DNA of 9,216 nt. It comes from Candidatus Mcinerneyibacteriota bacterium. Its GTDB lineage: Bacteria > AUK180 > JAQVHJ01. The notes beneath the pieces were generated by a model. That model saw nothing but the letters and a program-made list of their open reading frames with translations. It ran no database searches and had not been told where the DNA came from. The position numbers and the translations under genes are program-made. The stretch spans positions 1 through 9,216 of the forward strand of contig DAOVMD010000091.1 of NCBI GenBank assembly GCA_030630935.1, written 5' to 3'. Within the stretch, counting starts at the first letter, position 1; every line of letters begins with the position of its first letter. Positions 383 through 9,216 of the stretch are shown here, piece by piece.

Positions 383-410
383 TACCAATTATAATATTTA
401 GGAGGTTTTG

Positions 411-1451
411 ATGAAGAAACTAATTGCATTTTTAATAGCAGGTGTATTGATTTTTGGTATGATTTCATGTTCACCACCGTCCGACCCCAACTCCAAACCT
501 ACTCCAACAACAGAGCCCGGGGAAAAGATTAGGGTTGGTTTGGTTTTATCAGTTGGCGGGAGAGGAGATAAGTCGTTTAATGATTCTGCATATCGTGGTT
601 TGGTTTGGGCAAGAGACAGGTTAGGAGTTGAGATCACGGAAGGTCAGCCTAAGCAAATGGCTGAAGATGAAAATTACATCAGAACATTTGCAGAAGAAGG
701 TTATGATATTGTAATTGCAGTTGGTTTTTTAATGAAGCCGGCAATTGAAAAGGTCGCGAAAGAATTTCCAAATCAGAAATTTGCAATAATAGATGAGGTT
801 GTAGATGCTCCCAATGTTGCTTCCTTAGTTTTTGAAGAGCATCAGGGTAGTTTTCTTGTAGGAGCCTTAGCAGGCTTGAAGACAAAATCAAATAAAGTCG
901 GATTTATCGGGGGAATGGATGTTCCTCTTATTCATAAGTTTGAAGTTGGATATCAGGAAGGTGTAAAATATACTAACCCTGAGGCTAAGGTTTATATCAA
1001 ATATACCGGGTCTTCATCTGACGCATTTCATGATCCGACAAAAGGGAAGCAATTAGCAAATGCAATGTTCAATCAGGGAGTAGATATTATTTATCATGCA
1101 GCGGGCTCAACCGGGAATGGTGTAATTGATGCCGCGGCTGAGAAGAAAAAGTTTGCAATTGGAGTAGATTCAAATCAGAATTATATGCGTCCGGGATTTG
1201 TTCTAACCAGCATGGTTAAGAAAGTAGATGTTGCGGTTTTTGAGATTATTAAAGAAGTTAAGGAAGGTCGCTTTAAAGGTGGGGTACATAAATTTGGTTT
1301 AGAAAATGATGGTGTCGGTTATGCCCTTGACGAATATAATAAGGATTTAATAGATCAAAAAATGAAAGATAAGTTAGAAGAAATAAAATCCAAAATAATT
1401 TCCGGGGAAATAAAAGTAACCAACTATATAGAAGAGCAGAAAAACAAGTAA
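411..1451 (+). CDS. BMP/PnrA-family ABC transporter substrate-binding lipoprotein
   Basis: This is the periplasmic binding protein of a nucleoside-type ABC importer (Bmp/TmpC/PnrA family), 346 aa, of usual family length. Residues 1-19 are a signal peptide (KK followed by a hydrophobic stretch), and GMIS-C puts the lipidated cysteine at C20. A Pro/Ser/Thr-rich linker follows. Family hallmarks are visible: VGLVLSVGGRGDKSFND near the start of the mature domain, the AIIDEV and NVASLVFEEHQGSFLVGALAG blocks, GFIGGMDVPLIHKFEVGYQEG, and the late IGVDSNQNY segment. The ATG at 411 is chosen over the TTG at 408 because AGGAGG (400-405) sits five bases upstream of the ATG. The gene is followed after 44 bases by its ATPase gene. 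Purine-nucleoside binding is known for family members; the ligand here is not determined. Confidence 0.95.
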   Translation: MKKLIAFLIAGVLIFGMISCSPPSDPNSKPTPTTEPGEKIRVGLVLSVGGRGDKSFNDSAYRGLVWARDRLGVEITEGQPKQMAEDENYIRTFAEEGYDIVIAVGFLMKPAIEKVAKEFPNQKFAIIDEVVDAPNVASLVFEEHQGSFLVGALAGLKTKSNKVGFIGGMDVPLIHKFEVGYQEGVKYTNPEAKVYIKYTGSSSDAFHDPTKGKQLANAMFNQGVDIIYHAAGSTGNGVIDAAAEKKKFAIGVDSNQNYMRPGFVLTSMVKKVDVAVFEIIKEVKEGRFKGGVHKFGLENDGVGYALDEYNKDLIDQKMKDKLEEIKSKIISGEIKVTNYIEEQKNK

Positions 1452-1495: not shown

Positions 1496-3001
1496 ATGTC
1501 AAATTATATATTACAAGTAAAGAGCCTTAATAAAAGTTTTGAAAATGTTCATGCAGTAAAGACTGCATCCGTTGATTTTATAGAGGGAGAGATCCATTCA
1601 ATTATTGGTGAAAATGGTGCGGGCAAATCCACTCTGATGAATCTCATAACAGGATTATATGAACCTGATTCCGGTAAAATAATTTTTAAGGGCTCAGAGA
1701 TTGTGTTTAAATCACCTGCTGATTCGTTAAAGGTAGGAATAGGAATTGTTCATCAGCATTTTATGTTAATTGATGAGTTTACAGCAGTAGAAAATATTAT
1801 TTTAGGAAATGAAATTAAGAAAAACGGTTTCCTTGACATTTCAACAGCCAGGATAAAGATTTCTGAGCTCCAGGATAAGTACGGATTTAATTTTCCTTTA
1901 AATAAAAAAGTAGGAGAGTTAACAGTTGGTGAAAAGCAGCAGATAGAAATTTTAAAAATTCTTTTTAGAGAAGCAAACTTTTTTATATTTGATGAGCCTA
2001 CCGCAGTTTTGACTCCAATAGAAGTGGAAGGTTTATATAAGATATTTAGAAAATTAAAAGAAAATAATAATACCATTGTATTTATTTCACATAAATTAAA
2101 AGAGATATTTTCGATATCTGATAGAATCAGTGTAATGAGAAATGGTGAATTAATAGGTACATTTAATTCTGATGAGGTCACAAAAGCGGGAATTGCAGTT
2201 AAAATGGTCGGTCATGAAATCGATATTACAAAGATTGAGGAAAGAATTCCCGGTGAAATTCTTTTTGAAATGAGAGATGTCGAACTTTTTCTTAAGAAAA
2301 AGAAAGTACTTCATAATATAAATTTAAATATCAGGGCAGGTGAGATAGTTGGGATTGCAGGGGTTGAAGGGAATGGTCAGGATGAACTTGTAAGTTCAAT
2401 TATGAGTTTAGTTAAAATCAATTCCGGAGCAATCTTTTTCAGAGATCAAGAAATTAGCTCTTTATCAACAGAAGATAAGATAAAACTTGGTTTCTCAATT
2501 ATTCCATCAGATAGATTAAAAACCGGTGCTGTAACAGAGTTTACTCTTAAAGAAAATGTATTATTAGGCTTGCATAATTTCCCTGAATTTAGAAGAGGAA
2601 TATTTATTAATCTTGAAAAACGGGATACTCTGATTAAAGATATTATTGAAAAATTTAATGTAAAAGCTGAAAGTATTAACCAGGAATTCGGTAATCTATC
2701 AGGGGGTAATCAACAGAAGATTGTTGTTGGGAAATCAATATTTAAGAATCCTGAGATATTTATTGCCCATCATCCAACACGGGGATTAGATATCTCAGCA
2801 ACAGAGTTTGTCCACTCAATCCTTGAAAATCTTAAGCAGAATGATGTTGGAATTTTACTTATCTCATCAGATCTCGAGGAATTATTACGTCTTTCAGATA
2901 GAATTTATATTATGTATAAAGGTGAATTACTGGAAGAATTGCAGGGTAAAAGTGTGGAGATTAATTCAATCTGTAAGCTAATGGCAGGAATAAAGGATTG
3001 A
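1496..3001 (+). CDS. double-domain ABC transporter ATP-binding protein (BMP-type importer)
   Basis: This is the cytoplasmic ATPase subunit expected to power uptake of the ligand bound by the preceding lipoprotein: 501 aa with two fused nucleotide-binding domains, as in YufO/RbsA-type proteins. Domain 1 has Walker A GENGAGKST (38-46), a signature LTVGEKQQ (142-149), Walker B FDEP (D166, E167) and H199 in the switch region. Domain 2 (from about 253) has a degenerate Walker A (GVEGNGQDEL), an intact signature LSGGNQQK (to K408) and AHHPTRGLD (424-432) in place of Walker B. Loss of catalytic residues in the second domain is normal for this family, where AQPTRGLD is the usual form. The SD is weak. 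The one or two permease genes that usually follow are absent. Confidence 0.95.
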   Translation: MSNYILQVKSLNKSFENVHAVKTASVDFIEGEIHSIIGENGAGKSTLMNLITGLYEPDSGKIIFKGSEIVFKSPADSLKVGIGIVHQHFMLIDEFTAVENIILGNEIKKNGFLDISTARIKISELQDKYGFNFPLNKKVGELTVGEKQQIEILKILFREANFFIFDEPTAVLTPIEVEGLYKIFRKLKENNNTIVFISHKLKEIFSISDRISVMRNGELIGTFNSDEVTKAGIAVKMVGHEIDITKIEERIPGEILFEMRDVELFLKKKKVLHNINLNIRAGEIVGIAGVEGNGQDELVSSIMSLVKINSGAIFFRDQEISSLSTEDKIKLGFSIIPSDRLKTGAVTEFTLKENVLLGLHNFPEFRRGIFINLEKRDTLIKDIIEKFNVKAESINQEFGNLSGGNQQKIVVGKSIFKNPEIFIAHHPTRGLDISATEFVHSILENLKQNDVGILLISSDLEELLRLSDRIYIMYKGELLEELQGKSVEINSICKLMAGIKD

Positions 3002-3078: not shown

Positions 3079-3095
3079 TTGGCATATTATTTGCA
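3079..3095 (+). promoter_or_regulatory. sigma-54 type promoter for the RiPP operon
   Basis: T-TGGCA-TATTAT-TTGCA at 3079-3095 has GG (3081-3082) and GC (3093-3094) exactly spaced for a -24/-12 sigma-54 promoter. It matches the TGGCAYR-N4-TTGCA core at every strongly conserved position. The predicted transcript start is about 3106, giving a leader of 60-85 bases before the first gene. It lies in the intergenic space directly upstream of the operon and in the right orientation. Sigma-54 promoters need an enhancer-binding activator; no activator gene or clear paired upstream binding site is visible in the window. Confidence 0.6.
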
Positions 3096-3129
3096 CATAT
3101 AAAGGATAGCTCTTTAAAGGAAAAAAAAC

Positions 3130-3158
3130 TTGACAATATTTGCTTTTTATGTTATACT
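3130..3158 (+). promoter_or_regulatory. sigma-70 type promoter for the RiPP operon
   Basis: TTGACA (3130-3135), a 17-base spacer and TATACT (3153-3158) form a near-consensus housekeeping promoter. The predicted transcript start is about 3165. This would make the ATG at 3165 leaderless and so favours one of the later in-frame ATGs (3183 or 3192) as the start of the first gene. In AT-rich DNA such matches arise by chance, but the perfect -35 and the optimal spacing make this one good. Confidence 0.6.
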
Positions 3159-3191
3159 TCTTTAATGCAAGAATGCAAAAACATGTTTATT

Positions 3192-3509
3192 ATGAAGAAT
3201 ACAATAGCAGAAGTAGACATATTTAGAATTCATGATGACGTTGTCTGGAGAAATCTGGATGGCGAAGGTGTTCTTTTAAATCTTGAGAATAATTTTTACT
3301 ATTCCTTAAATGATACCGGTACCCTTATCTACGAACAGATAAAAGAAGGTCGAAGTGTGCATCAGATACTGGAGTATTTTTTTAAAGTATTCAGTGGCGA
3401 GGTTGCAGCTGAGACGCTGAAGAAGGATGTATTTGAGGTGCTTGCGGATCTGTTAAAAGAAGGATTGATTGAAAGAATTGTAAGTGCAAAGAAAGCAAGT
3501 GAAAATTAA
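3192..3509 (+). CDS. PqqD-like peptide recognition protein (B1-like RRE)
   Basis: This is a small winged-helix RiPP recognition element that would bind the leader of the precursor and present it to the B2 peptidase and the radical SAM enzyme. It has 105 aa, close to the usual PqqD/lasso-B1 size. Typical PqqD features are the opening strand block VVWRNLDGEGVLLNLENN, then FYYSLNDTGTLIYEQIKEGRS, a helix, and the C-terminal LLKEGLIERI. Three in-frame ATGs (3165, 3183, 3192) are possible and none has a good SD. I prefer 3192 because the domain begins right after it and because the sigma-70 promoter would start transcription near 3165; the longest form has 114 aa. Its 3' end overlaps the next gene. 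Confidence 0.85.
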   Translation: MKNTIAEVDIFRIHDDVVWRNLDGEGVLLNLENNFYYSLNDTGTLIYEQIKEGRSVHQILEYFFKVFSGEVAAETLKKDVFEVLADLLKEGLIERIVSAKKASEN

Positions 3510-3915
3510 TTCAATTGAAAAATTCTTTTTAGTTTTAAATGTTTTATTTCTTGGTGTGATAGTTAACATTTTCTTAGGAGTTGTTAATTTCACACAATTG
3601 ATTAAGAAGCTGAAACCGGAACGAGTTTCTAAAAACTCCCGGCATATTTCAATAGAAGAGATATATAGGATTTCATATAAAGTTCTTTATACATCGTTAT
3701 TTGGATATTTAATTTTTCGTCCAACATGCTTAAGGAAATCACTTGTACTTTATAGGGTTTTCAATCAATATGGTTATCCTGTTATGATTAACTTAGGTGT
3801 CAAGAAGGAATCAGGCTCAGTCACTGCGCATAGCTGGTTGACCTTGGATGGAGATCCAATATTTGAGAATTCTGAAATATTATCTGAGTATAATATGATT
3901 TATAATTATCAATAA
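3499..3915 (+). CDS. lasso-type B2 transglutaminase-like leader peptidase
   Basis: This is a cysteine protease of the lasso-peptide B2 (transglutaminase-like) family, which removes the leader from a RiPP precursor in partnership with a PqqD-like B1 protein. It has 138 aa from the GTG at 3499 (143 aa from an alternative GTG at 3484). Residues 9-31 are strongly hydrophobic and may anchor it in the membrane. The catalytic core is clear: RPTCLRKSLVLYR with nucleophile C77, then TAHSWLTLDGDP with H111 and an acidic residue at D117 or D119. The start overlaps the end of the PqqD-like gene by 11 bases, suggesting translational coupling. The family assignment is firm; the substrate is inferred to be the small peptide encoded at 4958-5113. 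Confidence 0.88.
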   Translation: MKINSIEKFFLVLNVLFLGVIVNIFLGVVNFTQLIKKLKPERVSKNSRHISIEEIYRISYKVLYTSLFGYLIFRPTCLRKSLVLYRVFNQYGYPVMINLGVKKESGSVTAHSWLTLDGDPIFENSEILSEYNMIYNYQ

Positions 3916-3918
3916 GGA
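3914..3918 (+). promoter_or_regulatory. ribosome binding site for the TTG start of the radical SAM gene
   Basis: AAGGA at 3914-3918, eight bases before TTG at 3927, supports the unusual TTG start. The next in-frame ATG (3975) would delete 16 residues but keep the CxxxCxxC motif, so it cannot be fully excluded. The site overlaps the stop codon of the B2 gene. Confidence 0.6.
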
Positions 3919-3926
3919 TTTGAAAA

Positions 3927-4961
3927 TTGAAAGAGCAAAATATAAGTTTCTTAAGACGAAAGATTAATAAAACCATGATTCCAATCACTTGTAGTTTGGA
4001 ATTAACTTCCCATTGTAATTATGATTGTATCCATTGTTTAAGAGACTTACGATACAAGGAAGAATTAACAAGGGAAGAGCTCTTTGATATCTTACAACAA
4101 CTAAAGGATATCGGAACAATGGAACTTGCCATAACCGGTGGTGAGGTTTTTTTAAGAAAGGATATCTTCGATATTTTCGACAAGGTATTTGAACTTGGAT
4201 TCTATACAACCTTATTCACGAATGGATTTTTAGTAGATGAAGCAAAAGCCGCGCGAATAAGTAACTACAAATTCCGCAGTGTGGATATTAGCCTTTACGG
4301 GATGACTCCGGAAATCAATGATTTGATAACCCGTGTCCCAGGTTCATTTGAAAAGACCATCAAAGCCATTCTAACTTTGAAGAGGCTTGGAATGACAGTT
4401 CAGGTAAAGACATTGTTGATGAAGGAGAATTTCAATGAACTCAACAAAATTCGAGAATTTGTTGAGAAGAACGATCTTCTTTTTTCCTTTGACCATGTAA
4501 TGTTCTCAGGAGACTCTGGGTCTACTGAACCTCTTGGACATGTTCTGGATGAAGACCAGGTTAGGCATATTGAAAACATCCGTTTTGAAATGGGTGGCCG
4601 TGCCACATTCCAGGATGATATTGATAGAGGTAAGAATGTTCATGATATAATGTGTACAATGGGTAGAAATGTTCTTGCAATCACACCGATTGGTGATGTG
4701 TTACCCTGTATAACTTTAAGATATCCTGTTGGGAATTTGAGAGAGCAGTCCCTTATAGAAATTTGGGAGAACTCAGAAAAATTAAGCTGGATAAGAAGCT
4801 TGAAAGATGAGCATTTTGAGAAATGTTTTAACTGTTCTTTAAAAAAAATTTGCCGGGTATGCCCCGGATTAAATTATACATTTAATAAAGATTTTTTTAC
4901 ACCTGCTTTACAGAAATGCAGGTTATCAAAAATTAAGCATGAAATGGAGGCAGACATATGA
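3927..4961 (+). CDS. radical SAM/SPASM peptide maturase
   Basis: This 344-aa enzyme is predicted to use S-adenosylmethionine and iron-sulfur clusters to modify a peptide. The radical SAM motif is C30-x3-C34-x2-C37, in the stretch LELTSHCNYDCIHC, and a GGE motif (AITGGEVFLRKD) follows at about residue 70. The C-terminal SPASM domain has the full seven-cysteine pattern that holds two auxiliary clusters: C243, G256-x4-C261, C300-x2-C303-x5-C309-x2-C312 and C331. SPASM enzymes in RiPP clusters make thioether, C-C or related crosslinks; which one is made here cannot be read from the sequence. The stop overlaps the precursor start (ATGA), so enzyme and substrate are translationally coupled. No separate PqqD-like domain is fused to it; the upstream gene supplies that. 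Confidence 0.93.
   Translation: MKEQNISFLRRKINKTMIPITCSLELTSHCNYDCIHCLRDLRYKEELTREELFDILQQLKDIGTMELAITGGEVFLRKDIFDIFDKVFELGFYTTLFTNGFLVDEAKAARISNYKFRSVDISLYGMTPEINDLITRVPGSFEKTIKAILTLKRLGMTVQVKTLLMKENFNELNKIREFVEKNDLLFSFDHVMFSGDSGSTEPLGHVLDEDQVRHIENIRFEMGGRATFQDDIDRGKNVHDIMCTMGRNVLAITPIGDVLPCITLRYPVGNLREQSLIEIWENSEKLSWIRSLKDEHFEKCFNCSLKKICRVCPGLNYTFNKDFFTPALQKCRLSKIKHEMEADI
4946..4950 (+). promoter_or_regulatory. strong ribosome binding site for the precursor peptide
   Basis: GGAGG lies seven bases before the ATG at 4958, the best SD within the RiPP operon. It sits inside the end of the radical SAM gene and supports both the reality of the small ORF and its high translation relative to the enzymes. 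Confidence 0.7.
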
Positions 4962-5113
4962 CAACCCCTATTAAATACCACAAGCCGGTTTTGATAAAGT
5001 ATAATAGGATGAATAAAATTACGAATACCAGTGGTGCCCTTGAAGGAACCGCAACATCAACATCTTGCGCTCTTGGCCGATGCGGCGGTGAGCCTGGTCC
5101 TTTAAAAGGATAA
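4958..5113 (+). CDS. RiPP precursor peptide with lasso-like leader (51 aa)
   Basis: A small gene overlaps the radical SAM gene by four bases (ATGA) and has a strong SD. The leader starts MTTPIKYHKPVLIKYN and carries Y7, P10 and L12, the spacing of the YxxPxL motif that lasso B1 proteins bind. T22 falls exactly where the conserved Thr at -2 of lasso leaders is expected; the usual Gly at position 16 is Asn. This predicts cleavage after N23 and a 28-residue core, T24-G51. The core runs from a Thr/Ser/Ala/Gly region to SCALGRCGGEPGP near the end, with C37 and C42 four residues apart. The core-coding DNA is clearly more GC-rich than its surroundings. The two cysteines are the likeliest targets of the radical SAM enzyme. 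A lasso fold is unlikely: no cyclase is seen and no Asp/Glu sits at core position 7-9. I do not recognise the family. Confidence 0.82.
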   Translation: MTTPIKYHKPVLIKYNRMNKITNTSGALEGTATSTSCALGRCGGEPGPLKG

Positions 5114-5204: not shown

Positions 5205-5231
5205 AAAGCGGTCGACAGACCGCTTTTTTTT
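5205..5231 (+). terminator. intrinsic terminator after the precursor gene
   Basis: AAAGCGGTC (5205-5213) and GACCGCTTT (5218-5226) form a nine-base-pair stem with a GACA tetraloop, running into eight T (5224-5231). This is a textbook rho-independent terminator and ends the RiPP operon 92 bases after the precursor stop. The space between (5114-5204) is AT-rich and holds only a trivial nine-residue frame. The HprK-like gene starts just 12 bases after the T-run, with its SD (AAGGGGA, 5234-5240) between, so that gene has no room for its own promoter downstream of the terminator. Confidence 0.85.
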
Positions 5232-5242
5232 ACAAGGGGAAT

Positions 5243-6262
5243 ATGAAAAGAGCCATTGAACAAATAAAGAATGCTTCAGATTTGAAATTTAAAGTAAAGA
5301 AAAAGATTTTTGAATTATCAATAAATTTTTCAACAAACCGCGCGAAACTTTTCAATGCATTCAATAATCTAATTCTCTGGGATAAGGTTTTTCAGAAGCC
5401 GGAATTAAATAATTTTAAATTTTATCTTATTGATACACGCGAGATTAATCTCCCCATAGTTTTTGATACACCGGAGAATTTTAAACTGCAGAAGAAAATA
5501 GGTGAGATTGAATATTATATTCATCCAAAGAATAATGAAATTTTATTTATTCAGATTTATAAGTCAATCAGATTCTATATTGATCTTGAAGAAAAATTGG
5601 TATTTGGAGCGTTAGTATTAGGTAAGATTTATTCAGATGATTTTTTAGCACAGTTTATAATATTTCCAATACTTGACTTTATTTTAAAGGACTTAGGTTA
5701 TTTTTCCATTCACTCAGGTGGAATTGTAAAAGGTAGAAAGGCAGTAATTTTCCCGGCCCGGAAGGAATCAGGGAAGACAACACTATCATTATATTTAGCA
5801 CGAAATGGCTTCGGCTTTTTAGGGGATGAGACAATTTACGGGACTTCAGCAGAGTCAGGTGTAGAGTTATTCGGATTTCCCCGGCAGATAAAATTATATA
5901 ATGATTCGATTAAGTTTTTCCCAGAGATCTCTAAACTGAACGAATTTAAAGATATAAAATTAAAAAGATTCAAGGTCAGATTTCCGGTGGATAAACTTCT
6001 TAACCTGAATATTAAAAAGAAATCCGGACCTGGTTTTATTATATTCCCCAGCCGGGGAAAGAGATTTTCAATTAAACCATTGAAAAAGATTGATGCGGTA
6101 AAATATATTGTTCCTGAATCTGCAGAATTCATTGGGAAAAAGATTGCAGTTGAATATCTGGATTTTATACATAAGTTAATCGACGAGAGCAGGGTATTCA
6201 AATTAGTTACCGGTTCAGACTTAGATTTAGTAACCAGAGAAATTTCAGGGTTGTTCCAATGA
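5243..6262 (+). CDS. HPr-kinase-like P-loop protein of RiPP clusters
   Basis: A 339-aa protein whose middle part resembles the catalytic core of HPr kinase/phosphorylase. H157 in FSIHSGGIVKG precedes a P-loop ARKESGKTT (172-180, Ala in place of the first Gly), then the acidic GDET (D195, E196) and a GFPRQIKL segment. The N-terminal 150 residues are a poorly conserved region and the C-terminal 120 are Lys-rich. It is not a true HprK: there is no phosphotransferase-system context. HprK-related kinases are known beside PqqD/B2 pairs, and such kinases phosphorylate some lasso peptides, so a role in modifying or regulating the product is plausible but inferred. The start has an AAGGGGA-type SD. 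Its stop overlaps the next ATG (ATGA), indicating co-translation with the O-antigen ligase. Confidence 0.8.
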   Translation: MKRAIEQIKNASDLKFKVKKKIFELSINFSTNRAKLFNAFNNLILWDKVFQKPELNNFKFYLIDTREINLPIVFDTPENFKLQKKIGEIEYYIHPKNNEILFIQIYKSIRFYIDLEEKLVFGALVLGKIYSDDFLAQFIIFPILDFILKDLGYFSIHSGGIVKGRKAVIFPARKESGKTTLSLYLARNGFGFLGDETIYGTSAESGVELFGFPRQIKLYNDSIKFFPEISKLNEFKDIKLKRFKVRFPVDKLLNLNIKKKSGPGFIIFPSRGKRFSIKPLKKIDAVKYIVPESAEFIGKKIAVEYLDFIHKLIDESRVFKLVTGSDLDLVTREISGLFQ

Positions 6263-9216
6263 ATAAGAAATTCGAAGCTTCAGTAGATGAACTGAATTTG
6301 AAATATTTAGATATCTCTTTAATGACCTGTTCCGGACTTTTCTTATTATTAACGCCATTATTATTCTGGTATAAAACAAGTAATCCTTATATTATCAAAG
6401 ATGTTTTTTTTCAAGCCATTTCATTTTTAATCCTGATATTGTTTTTAACACGGTTTGTAATGAGTAGAGAATTTAAATTCTTGCGTCTTCCGGTTATGCT
6501 GCCGTTTATGATTTATGTGATATTTACTTTTGTCTCTATTACATGGGCTTGGGGAAGGTATGAGGCATTTTATGAATTTATTTATCGTATGACGGGAGGG
6601 TTCCTGGTATTCTTAATTTTCGTAAATATCATAAACTCAGAAAAGAAACTACATATTTTATTTTATATAATTATCTTAACCGGTGTACTCGTATCAATAT
6701 ATGGAATTCCCCAAAGTTTTGGAGTTGAAATTTTACAACCGGTAAAAAATTGGCAGAGTCCGTTCGGAACCAGGGTAATGTCAACTCTCGGCAACCCCAA
6801 TTTCGCAGCAGGATATTTATTGGGAGTTCTACCTTTATCCCTGAGTTTATTTTTATTTAGTAAGAGAAGAACAACCTTTTTCAGGATTCCTTATAAATTT
6901 ATTTTTGGAGTTACGAGCGTAATAATTTTATGGTGTCTCATTGCCACCCAGACCCGGGGTGCTCTTGTTTCGATGTTATTCGGGATAGTGTTGTTTATTT
7001 CCATATACTTTTATATTAAAGTTAAATCTGTAAAAAGTGAAGTTCCGGTTAACGGTTTGAATTCAGACCAGACCTCTGCAACGAAGCGGGTGCCTTTTCT
7101 TATTCCAATAAGTATTGTACTGGTTTTAGTTTTTATTTTAATCTTTACAACCGGTGGTATTGGCAAAAGGTTAGCGACTACAAAGCGTCAGGTTCTATTC
7201 TCAGAAGGTAGTATTGGTCAAAGATATTTAATGTGGAATGTTGGCCTTAAGATTGTTAAGGATAAACCTGTACTGGGAACGGGAATAGGTATGTACCGAT
7301 TGCTCTACCCGGATTACCAGGGTGAATTTCTCATGAATGAAAATTTTATTCGGCAAAATACTCATGCAAGACATCCGCATAATGAATTTATCGAGAATGC
7401 AAATGACCTTGGTTTTTTCGGGTTAATTGTGTTTCTATGGCTTATGTTTTCAATAGTAATATTTGGTTTCAAATTACTACATAAATTATTTGATGATAAA
7501 ATCTTTCCTTATTTATTCGGGTCACTGATCACTGTTATTATAATGTTGTTCCATAACCTTGTTTCGGTTGTATTAAGATATACTTCACCGATGCTGATAT
7601 TCTGGAGCGCAATAAGTTTTATATTTATAATTTATGGACTTCGAGTAAAATCAAGTTTACCCGATTATAAAGTTTCGGAGATAAAAGGGTTATTTAAAAA
7701 TCTATTTTCATTCAGGAAAGAAACGTATTGTACAATTTTAGGGTCTGTAAAAATGATATTCAATCGTATTGCAATAGTCGTAATTATCTTTTTAATTTTT
7801 TTTACTCTATTCTGGACAAGACATAATTATCGGATGCTTATGGCAAGTAAGAATTTCTCTCATGGCTTAGGTTTAGTTGAGCTAACAGATAAAAGAGCAT
7901 TCCCGCCTAATATGCCCCCTGAAGTTATTGAAACAGATAAGTTTAACATTACAGTTGAGGCTTTGAAATATTTTCAGAAGACTGCTGAGTTCGATCCGAA
8001 TTATTTGAATAGTTATTATCGTATGGGTAATTGTTTTATTCAATTGGAAAGTTACAAAACCAATGTATTAAAAACTCATGCTTCATTTAAAAAGCAAGGG
8101 TCCGGTATGCAGCCGCAGATGCGGGATCTTTATAAGAGAACTCAGGCATCATTAGCATATTTAAGAAAATATATCAAGGACTTCAATAACTCAGATGAGT
8201 ATTTTTTAATAGCAGCTAAATATCTCAAGACAGGGAAAAAGTATAAACCTTCGTATGCTGAGATAAACTTTAATCTTGGAGTTTGTTTAAGCCGCTTGAG
8301 CCGGATTAATAAAGATATAATGAAAGAATCAATCGAACATCTCAAGCGAGCAGTAGAGATTGAACCGATTAATACCGGGGCATTGAAAAAGCTTGGTGAG
8401 ATGTACTTCAAAGTTGGTCAGCAGGAAAATGGATTCAAAACATTTGACCGGGTGTTTAAGGTTCTTGAGATTGAGAAAAGAGTTGATAATAAACTGCTGG
8501 AGTATGAAATTCTTAAGCTTGATAAAAATAAAATATCTTTTATGCAGTTAAATTTCCGATTCAAATCATTGATTAATAATCAGAGACGAATCTTGATGAA
8601 TGCAGAAAAGATTTATAAGATTTCGAAGAAAGGTCATGGGGAAGAGATAATTACAAAGTATTATTTATTTTTCTCTACTGAACTTAAAATCTTTCGCGAA
8701 TACCTGCTTTATAGAAATGAAGTATTTAACAAACTGCTTTCTAATAAAGAACAATATTCAATTTCACGTAAGGATGAAGGGGTAATACGTAAAATTCTAA
8801 GTATTGATTTTAATGATTATTTCTGGGCAACTTACCGTGAAGGTAAGCTCCATTTCAATAATGGAAACCTGTTGGAAGTTGAAAAGGTTTTTAATGAGAG
8901 TATTAAGTTTCCTAAATTAAAAAGTGATAAGGAAAAATGTAAGTATCTCATTAATAAACTTGTTGATTATAATTGGGAATTGAATAATCGTGAAAAAGCT
9001 TTTAAACTGCTTGATGAAGAGATTCGAAAGGGCGATGTCAGATTTGATATTAAGAAATCATTTTTATTCTTCAGGTTAGGAGATCTTGATAACTCTTCAA
9101 AAATTCTGAATGCGAATAAAGCACTGCTTAAGAATCTTGAAGCATATAGATATGTAATCGATTCTTATATTGACACAAAACCTGAATATATTGCAGAATA
9201 TTTTCACTTCGCATCA
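6259..9216 (+). CDS. O-antigen ligase/polymerase family membrane protein with TPR repeats (partial)
   Basis: Translated by hand, this frame is open without a stop from the ATG at 6259 to the window edge: at least 986 aa, 3' end missing. Residues 20-520 are a polytopic membrane domain with a dozen or so hydrophobic segments. It carries the WaaL/Wzy_C hallmarks: GNPNFAAGYLLG near 180, TQTRGA (230-235) and HPHNEFIENANDLGFFGL with H372 and H374. These proteins transfer or polymerise lipid-linked glycans on the outer face of the inner membrane. After a last membrane segment near 505, a periplasmic part carries TPR-like repeats: KYFQKTAEFDPNYLNSYYRM (about 569-598), AEINFNLGV...AVEIEP (about 668-703) and the ALKKLGEMYFKVGQ region. 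The remainder is Lys/Asn-rich helix. It overlaps the HprK-like gene by ATGA with a modest AGGG SD (6247-6250). The glycan, and any link to the RiPP, are unknown. Confidence 0.85.
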   Translation, partial: MNKKFEASVDELNLKYLDISLMTCSGLFLLLTPLLFWYKTSNPYIIKDVFFQAISFLILILFLTRFVMSREFKFLRLPVMLPFMIYVIFTFVSITWAWGRYEAFYEFIYRMTGGFLVFLIFVNIINSEKKLHILFYIIILTGVLVSIYGIPQSFGVEILQPVKNWQSPFGTRVMSTLGNPNFAAGYLLGVLPLSLSLFLFSKRRTTFFRIPYKFIFGVTSVIILWCLIATQTRGALVSMLFGIVLFISIYFYIKVKSVKSEVPVNGLNSDQTSATKRVPFLIPISIVLVLVFILIFTTGGIGKRLATTKRQVLFSEGSIGQRYLMWNVGLKIVKDKPVLGTGIGMYRLLYPDYQGEFLMNENFIRQNTHARHPHNEFIENANDLGFFGLIVFLWLMFSIVIFGFKLLHKLFDDKIFPYLFGSLITVIIMLFHNLVSVVLRYTSPMLIFWSAISFIFIIYGLRVKSSLPDYKVSEIKGLFKNLFSFRKETYCTILGSVKMIFNRIAIVVIIFLIFFTLFWTRHNYRMLMASKNFSHGLGLVELTDKRAFPPNMPPEVIETDKFNITVEALKYFQKTAEFDPNYLNSYYRMGNCFIQLESYKTNVLKTHASFKKQGSGMQPQMRDLYKRTQASLAYLRKYIKDFNNSDEYFLIAAKYLKTGKKYKPSYAEINFNLGVCLSRLSRINKDIMKESIEHLKRAVEIEPINTGALKKLGEMYFKVGQQENGFKTFDRVFKVLEIEKRVDNKLLEYEILKLDKNKISFMQLNFRFKSLINNQRRILMNAEKIYKISKKGHGEEIITKYYLFFSTELKIFREYLLYRNEVFNKLLSNKEQYSISRKDEGVIRKILSIDFNDYFWATYREGKLHFNNGNLLEVEKVFNESIKFPKLKSDKEKCKYLINKLVDYNWELNNREKAFKLLDEEIRKGDVRFDIKKSFLFFRLGDLDNSSKILNANKALLKNLEAYRYVIDSYIDTKPEYIAEYFHFAS

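Follow-up and report, generated by a model that had tools for sequence, protein, structure and literature searches.

Pairs of lasso B1 and B2 proteins, a leader-binding RiPP recognition element (RRE; RiPP, ribosomally synthesized and post-translationally modified peptide) and a leader peptidase, are generally read as markers of lasso peptides, the leaders of which carry YxxPxL at positions -17, -14 and -12 and Thr or Ile at -2 (PMC10368454). The phosphorylated lasso pathways, paeninodin and the bsf pathway of Bradymonas (PMC10368454), combine a discrete PqqD/B1 RRE, a B2 protein, a leader that has YxxPxL and a conserved residue at -2, and an HprK-like gene. All of these occur in the stretch of DNA described in this article, a complete contig of 9,216 bases (DAOVMD010000091.1; here G000:C236) from a Candidatus Mcinerneyibacteriota bacterium, which was analysed over its full length and is called the window; the assembly amounts to 3.16 Mb in 471 contigs and is estimated to be 80% complete. 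Unlike paeninodin and bsf, the window cassette lacks a lasso cyclase and includes a radical S-adenosylmethionine (SAM)/SPASM enzyme, and the predicted core of its peptide of 51 amino acids (aa) has an acidic residue at position 6, a Cys pair and a Lys-Gly end.

The genes for the PqqD-like protein, the B2 peptidase, the radical SAM/SPASM enzyme and the 51-aa peptide overlap or nearly abut, the first three are named by curated models, and the B1/B2 pair is found with the correct leader geometry and no detected lasso cyclase. This cassette is probably a non-lasso RiPP operon, in which lasso-type leader recognition and removal are joined to core chemistry carried out by the radical SAM enzyme and possibly a kinase. 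The sequence-only reading of this DNA had likewise put the radical SAM enzyme in the place of the cyclase and expected a different class of peptide, a view supported by the analysis, since no lasso cyclase was found in the window, around the clusters of its relatives or among the Asn synthases scanned from four class genomes, and the small open reading frame (ORF) is conserved.

The precursor peptide and its predicted processing enzymes

The sample of the window's class comprised seven genomes, including the window's own (G000). A search of all seven found the radical SAM enzyme in six, and the four-gene order singled out by the sequence-only reading, PqqD-B2-radical SAM-51-aa peptide, is identical in these six, the window's included. 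The peptide gene has a GGAGG ribosome site and an ATGA overlap with the radical SAM gene. Its product is 51 aa long in all six genomes, with 41-88% identity to the window copy, and 25 synonymous and 6 non-synonymous codon differences separate the window gene from that of the nearest relative; constant length, identity and this pattern of substitution indicate a real, selected gene, as had been proposed from the letters alone.

The predicted leader comprises residues 1-23 and the core residues 24-51 (TSGALEGTATSTSCALGRCGGEPGPLKG). Residues Y7, P10, L12 and T22 form Y(-17)xxP(-14)xL(-12)...T(-2), with the exact spacing of lasso leaders, found also in a characterised lasso precursor (PMC10368454), from which the core is predicted to have 28 residues, in agreement with the length first suggested. 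A second precursor, unlinked to the cassette, was found with the peptide profile (G000:C108:63-209, L089; MKKYLKPELTKYSKLMKITN/VSLALEGTAVISDCTLNRCGGTPPPVKG), and another unlinked copy, cut by the contig end, occurs in the nearest relative (G001:C140, L090, about 10578-10700), so that paralogues are present in two genomes. The unlinked copies match the linked ones in their leaders, Tyr(-17), Pro(-14), Leu(-12) and Thr(-2) being present in all six linked and two unlinked precursors. The complete unlinked copy also has a core of 28 residues and shares its 17+28 layout with all six linked precursors. In the seven complete cores E6, G7, T8, C14, L16, R18, C19, P23, K27 and G28 are invariant, giving the conserved segments EGT, CxLxRC, P and KG, position 2 is Ser or Thr throughout, and none contains F, W, Y or H. 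No processing enzymes were seen on the short contig holding the unlinked G000 precursor, and a PHROGs search with the peptide gave no match. An RmlD-like gene lies 3' of the unlinked G000 precursor, and both unlinked copies stand at contig ends.

The PqqD-like protein, recognized earlier from the sequence and matched here by PF05402, probably starts at ATG 3192, as indicated by alignment to its relatives. A profile of the six class PqqD proteins gave as best PDB matches the lasso B1 proteins TbiB1 and TfuB1. In B2, residues C82, H116, W118 and E128, counted from GTG 3484, are invariant in the six genomes; the C77/H111 pair previously assigned to this protease corresponds to numbering from the downstream GTG 3499, and family models match the protein. 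The B2 profile found no match among PDB sequences, and a Foldseek search with its AlphaFold model (pLDDT 83) returned nothing at E <= 0.001; the top rows, which include transglutaminase-like and other cysteine proteases, add little. The radical SAM enzyme has CX3CX2C at 30/34/37 and the complete seven-Cys SPASM pattern of the sequence-only reading, with cysteines at 243, 261, 300, 303, 309, 312 and 331. All of these are invariant in six orthologues, the window protein being 42-76% identical to the others.

Pairing of B2 with radical SAM enzymes in other lineages

The B2 model gave a match in 57 of the 372 genomes searched, and in 33 of these the score exceeded the cut-off. In the DNA inspected around these matches, B2 is accompanied by a radical SAM enzyme but by no Asn synthase in G231, G354, G193, G048, G325, G196, G323 and G046 and, less tightly linked, in G074, whereas G138 encodes PqqD-B2-radical SAM-66-aa peptide in the same order as the window; altogether, the pairing without a detected Asn synthase extends to about ten lineages beyond the window's class, and HprK-like proteins lie beside most of these loci. 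A tree built from 41 radical SAM proteins places the enzymes linked to B2 in two parts, one formed by the window's class with G138 close to it and the other a very distant group of seven, and the B2-linkage label requires three changes. Two tested members of the distant group have no Pfam SPASM match. B2 is thus paired with radical SAM enzymes in at least two distant groups of the latter; the earlier proposal that the cyclase was replaced is an evolutionary claim that goes further than this pairing.

Precursors were sought in B2-linked loci and in radical SAM loci without a nearby B2 by an identical scan for the neutral motif [YFW]xxPx[LIVFAM], located on the same strand and no more than 1.5 kb from the radical SAM gene. 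Among the B2-linked lineages, the residue at Y+15, corresponding to -2, is I in G074 and T in the other four, namely the window's class, G231, G196 and G046. The 15 precursors without a nearby B2 never have T; A stands at this position in 11 of them, Y in two, and L or S in the others. With each lineage counted once and chance motif matches discarded by the analyst's choice, T(-2) is therefore present in four of five B2-linked lineages and in 0 of 15 without B2 nearby (Fisher p about 0.001). Two precursors read by hand, G354 (F in place of Y) and G138 (YxxY), also have T at -2. This association provides the strongest indirect evidence that B2 would cut these leaders, and T(-2) provides a simple test.

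In G231 there are four short precursors with predicted cores of 6-8 residues (L145:3980-4280, 7812-8129), of which two adjoin the radical SAM gene and the other two precede the PqqD-B2 pair by about 2 kb. Ten radical SAM loci of other lineages without a nearby B2 (L037, L041, L045, L046, L048, L050, L054, L055, L056 and L059), several with PqqD and HprK-like genes, form a separate large precursor group, with leaders of the type YxKPx[ILV]...A that often lead into an early Cys.

Recurrence suggests that leader recognition and removal constitute a portable module, one that could be combined with core chemistry of more than one kind. A broader proposal, offered tentatively and with the balance leaning against it, is a cross-phylum RiPP family. 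The B1/B2 and T(-2) leader module would have become coupled to radical SAM enzymes on at least two independent occasions, in most cases together with an HprK-like kinase. In the window's class it would mature a CX4C peptide of strictly 28 residues that is conserved throughout the class, the precursor encoded in trans being included, and this peptide would have a conserved role in the envelope and not that of an antibiotic.

Proposed pathway and alternative explanations

The reactions, their order and the bond formed are proposed here from sequence. The PqqD-like RRE would bind the YxxPxL leader motif and present the 51-aa precursor to the radical SAM/SPASM enzyme, which would modify the core of 28 residues, the invariant CxLxRC being the most likely site, with an expected loss of 2 Da per crosslink. 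B2, activated by the same RRE, would then cut after Asn23, one past Thr(-2), freeing the modified core, and the second precursor encoded elsewhere would be processed in trans by the same enzymes. By analogy with related kinases, which phosphorylate Ser3 in the bsf and LPP peptides (PMC10368454; PMC13381572), the HprK-like protein may modify the core at Ser/Thr2 or Thr8.

The absence of F, W, Y and H from the cores rules out aromatic-residue radical SAM chemistries, and thus sites of the triceptide/cyclophane, streptide, pyrroloquinoline quinone (PQQ) and mycofactocin types. In view of the invariant CX4C, the first guess is a Cys thioether, the two Cys being compatible with a sactipeptide or ranthipeptide type of bond. 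The near-constant core points to a conserved role, which would probably relate to the envelope rather than be that of an arms-race antibiotic; for the envelope, the polysaccharide-type neighbours (Wzy_C/TPR) give no more than a hint.

Could the cassette be a true lasso pathway, its cyclase encoded elsewhere and the radical SAM enzyme added for tailoring? The B1 RRE, the B2 peptidase and the YxxPxL leader with Thr(-2) are as in lasso pathways, and Asn_synthase-family proteins are encoded in all seven class genomes. No lasso cyclase, however, was present in the window, that is, the whole contig, or in up to 20 kb around the clusters of five relatives. Seven Asn synthase candidates, six from G000, G003, G004 and G005 and one control from G360, were compared with the lasso-cyclase model NF033535 (cut-off 525 bits): the class proteins scored 42-247 bits (best 246.7), against 568.7 for the control, a protein of a genuine lasso locus that has two PqqD-B2 pairs and a YxxP precursor in its vicinity. 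This result applies to genomes estimated as 80% (G000) and 95-96% (G003-G005) complete, with one G000 copy cut at a contig end, and G001, G002 and G006 were outside the scan. Full-length G000 proteins start with MCG, like glutamine-hydrolysing enzymes. Family members of about 600 aa without the N-terminal Cys, present in G003, G004 and G005, count in favour of a lasso pathway, but they scored 42-70 bits and adjoin flippases in polysaccharide loci (L096:2135-3931, L097:1877-3667 and L100:1472-3265). Moreover, where a lasso peptide has Asp or Glu at core position 7, 8 or 9, the seven complete cores have G, T and A/S, the invariant Glu being at 6. A lasso pathway is accordingly considered improbable. 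Chance neighbourhood, with the small ORF no precursor and PqqD, B2 and the radical SAM enzyme serving other substrates, is more improbable still: in six genomes the ORF keeps its length and sequence, the overlap with the gene of the radical SAM enzyme and the geometry of the leader, and there are paralogues.

The other two alternatives concern the kind of product. A CX4C pair in a 28-residue core that offers few acceptors does not resemble the hairpins of classic sactipeptides, and the radical SAM protein falls far under the cut-off of every named NCBIfam equivalog model; these points speak against a known radical SAM type, sactipeptide or ranthipeptide, that merely acquired a B2 for leader removal. 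On its side are the SPASM enzyme, the two invariant core Cys, a score of 109 bits with the StsB maturase model and the discrete RREs with YxxP-like recognition found in sactipeptides too (PMC12710340). The probability of this reading is put distinctly below one half. The product might also be a conserved peptide that serves as a cofactor or as a structural part of the envelope, made in the manner of PQQ or mycofactocin and distinct from a secreted antibiotic; this alternative comes a little short of even: the core is conserved as strongly as the leader across two families, the cassette is present in six of seven class genomes beside polysaccharide-type and Wzy_C/TPR genes, and no dedicated exporter was seen, yet PQQ- and mycofactocin-type chemistry uses a core Tyr, whereas the present core is free of aromatic residues, and function does not follow from neighbourhood alone.

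Several observations weigh against the preferred reading, a non-lasso operon with lasso-type leader processing. McjB-type proteins have a catalytic Asp at H+12, whereas B2 has Glu128 at this position in all six genomes. The B2 proteins of G002-G004 are below the family-model thresholds and were recognised by alignment and position alone, and the AlphaFold model of the radical SAM enzyme was of low confidence (pLDDT 60) and was left unused. The motif scan found no precursors in G193, G048, G325 and G323. WxxP/YxxP-type recognition is common to lasso, PQQ and sactipeptide RREs, and YxxP by itself is shared by PqqD, sactipeptide and other RREs (PMC12710340). Finally, the window HprK-like protein keeps H and K, with the catalytic DD changed to DE and the first Walker A Gly gone, which makes kinase activity doubtful in this species; the HprK-like proteins of G003-G005 have complete catalytic motifs.

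Gene neighbourhood and comparison with known systems

The genes of the window all lie on the + strand in the order given in Table 1. Of the bounding signals noted earlier, the terminator and the promoter 5' of the PqqD gene are present; taken as a group, though, promoter-like sites do not occur more often than expected by chance.

Table 1. Features of the window, with positions counted from its first base
Feature	Position	Strand	Evidence or remark
PnrA/BMP-type lipoprotein	408-1451	+	
ATP-binding cassette (ABC) ATPase	1496-3001	+	
Sigma-70-like promoter, TTGACA-17-TATACT, 5' of PqqD gene	3130..3158	+	11/12 matches, with TG extension
PqqD-like discrete RRE (B1-type leader-binding protein)	3192..3509, longest ORF from 3165	+	PF05402 E 9.4e-13
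Lasso-type B2 leader peptidase (predicted)	3499..3915, longest ORF from 3484	+	NF033537 48.1 bits, cut-off 33; Transglut_core3 E 2.5e-12
Radical SAM/SPASM enzyme (putative peptide-modifying), TTG start	3927..4961	+	PF04055 E 2.9e-23, PF13186 E 7.8e-14
Precursor peptide, 51 aa	4958..5113	+	Kept in six genomes; lasso-type leader spacing; purifying selection
Intrinsic terminator 3' of precursor	5205..5226	+	9-pair stem, then T run
HprK-like kinase relative	5243..6262	+	TIGR04352 E 1.6e-11, 43.8 bits, below cut-off 200
O-antigen ligase/polymerase (Wzy_C) and TPR protein	6259..9216, past contig end	+	PF04932 E 1.7e-21

The HprK-like and then the Wzy_C/TPR genes follow the cassette in the window and in G002-G005, and the G001 contig terminates within the HprK-like gene; these two genes are thus part of the conserved surroundings of the cassette. 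Neither they nor the second precursor gene had figured in the sequence-only reading. The Bmp-ABC pair lies 5' of the cassette in five genomes (the window, L022, L023, L024 and L026). The ABC gene overlaps the PqqD gene in G002-G004, and no permease gene was noticed beside the lipoprotein/ATPase pair. A single scan of the GTDB contig collection returned the nearest relative and two distant radical SAM proteins only.

A PqqD-like RRE together with a radical SAM/SPASM enzyme is also found in PQQ, mycofactocin and StsB-type sactipeptide pathways and in the SynChlorMet and GeoRSP NCBIfam sets, sometimes with the kinase-like protein ScmC. The window enzyme fails all equivalog cut-offs of these systems and, to our knowledge, none of them includes a B2 leader peptidase. 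Regarding the RREs themselves, the discrete lasso model of RRE-Finder also picks about 300 proteins adjoining radical SAM enzymes; in the available part of that work they are handled as false positives of the model, and no B2, precursor family or leader T(-2) is described (PMC7470986). No description of B1/B2 with a radical SAM enzyme and a T(-2) precursor was found in the open literature, in sources partly available and with subscription papers and preprints largely outside the scope, and a prior description of the arrangement is possible. As B1/B2 pairs occur here with no detected cyclase, mining based on B1/B2 would mislabel such loci, and rules that require a cyclase would miss them.

The LPP RiPPs of Bacillota (Popov et al. 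2026, PMC13381572) resemble the window system in being non-lasso and in having a YxxP leader, a discrete RRE and an HprK-type kinase; the term "radical SAM" is absent from the text of that paper. The two differ in the removal of the leader, which is cut by a SpI-like signal peptidase in the LPP pathway (PMC13381572) and by the predicted B2 in the window.

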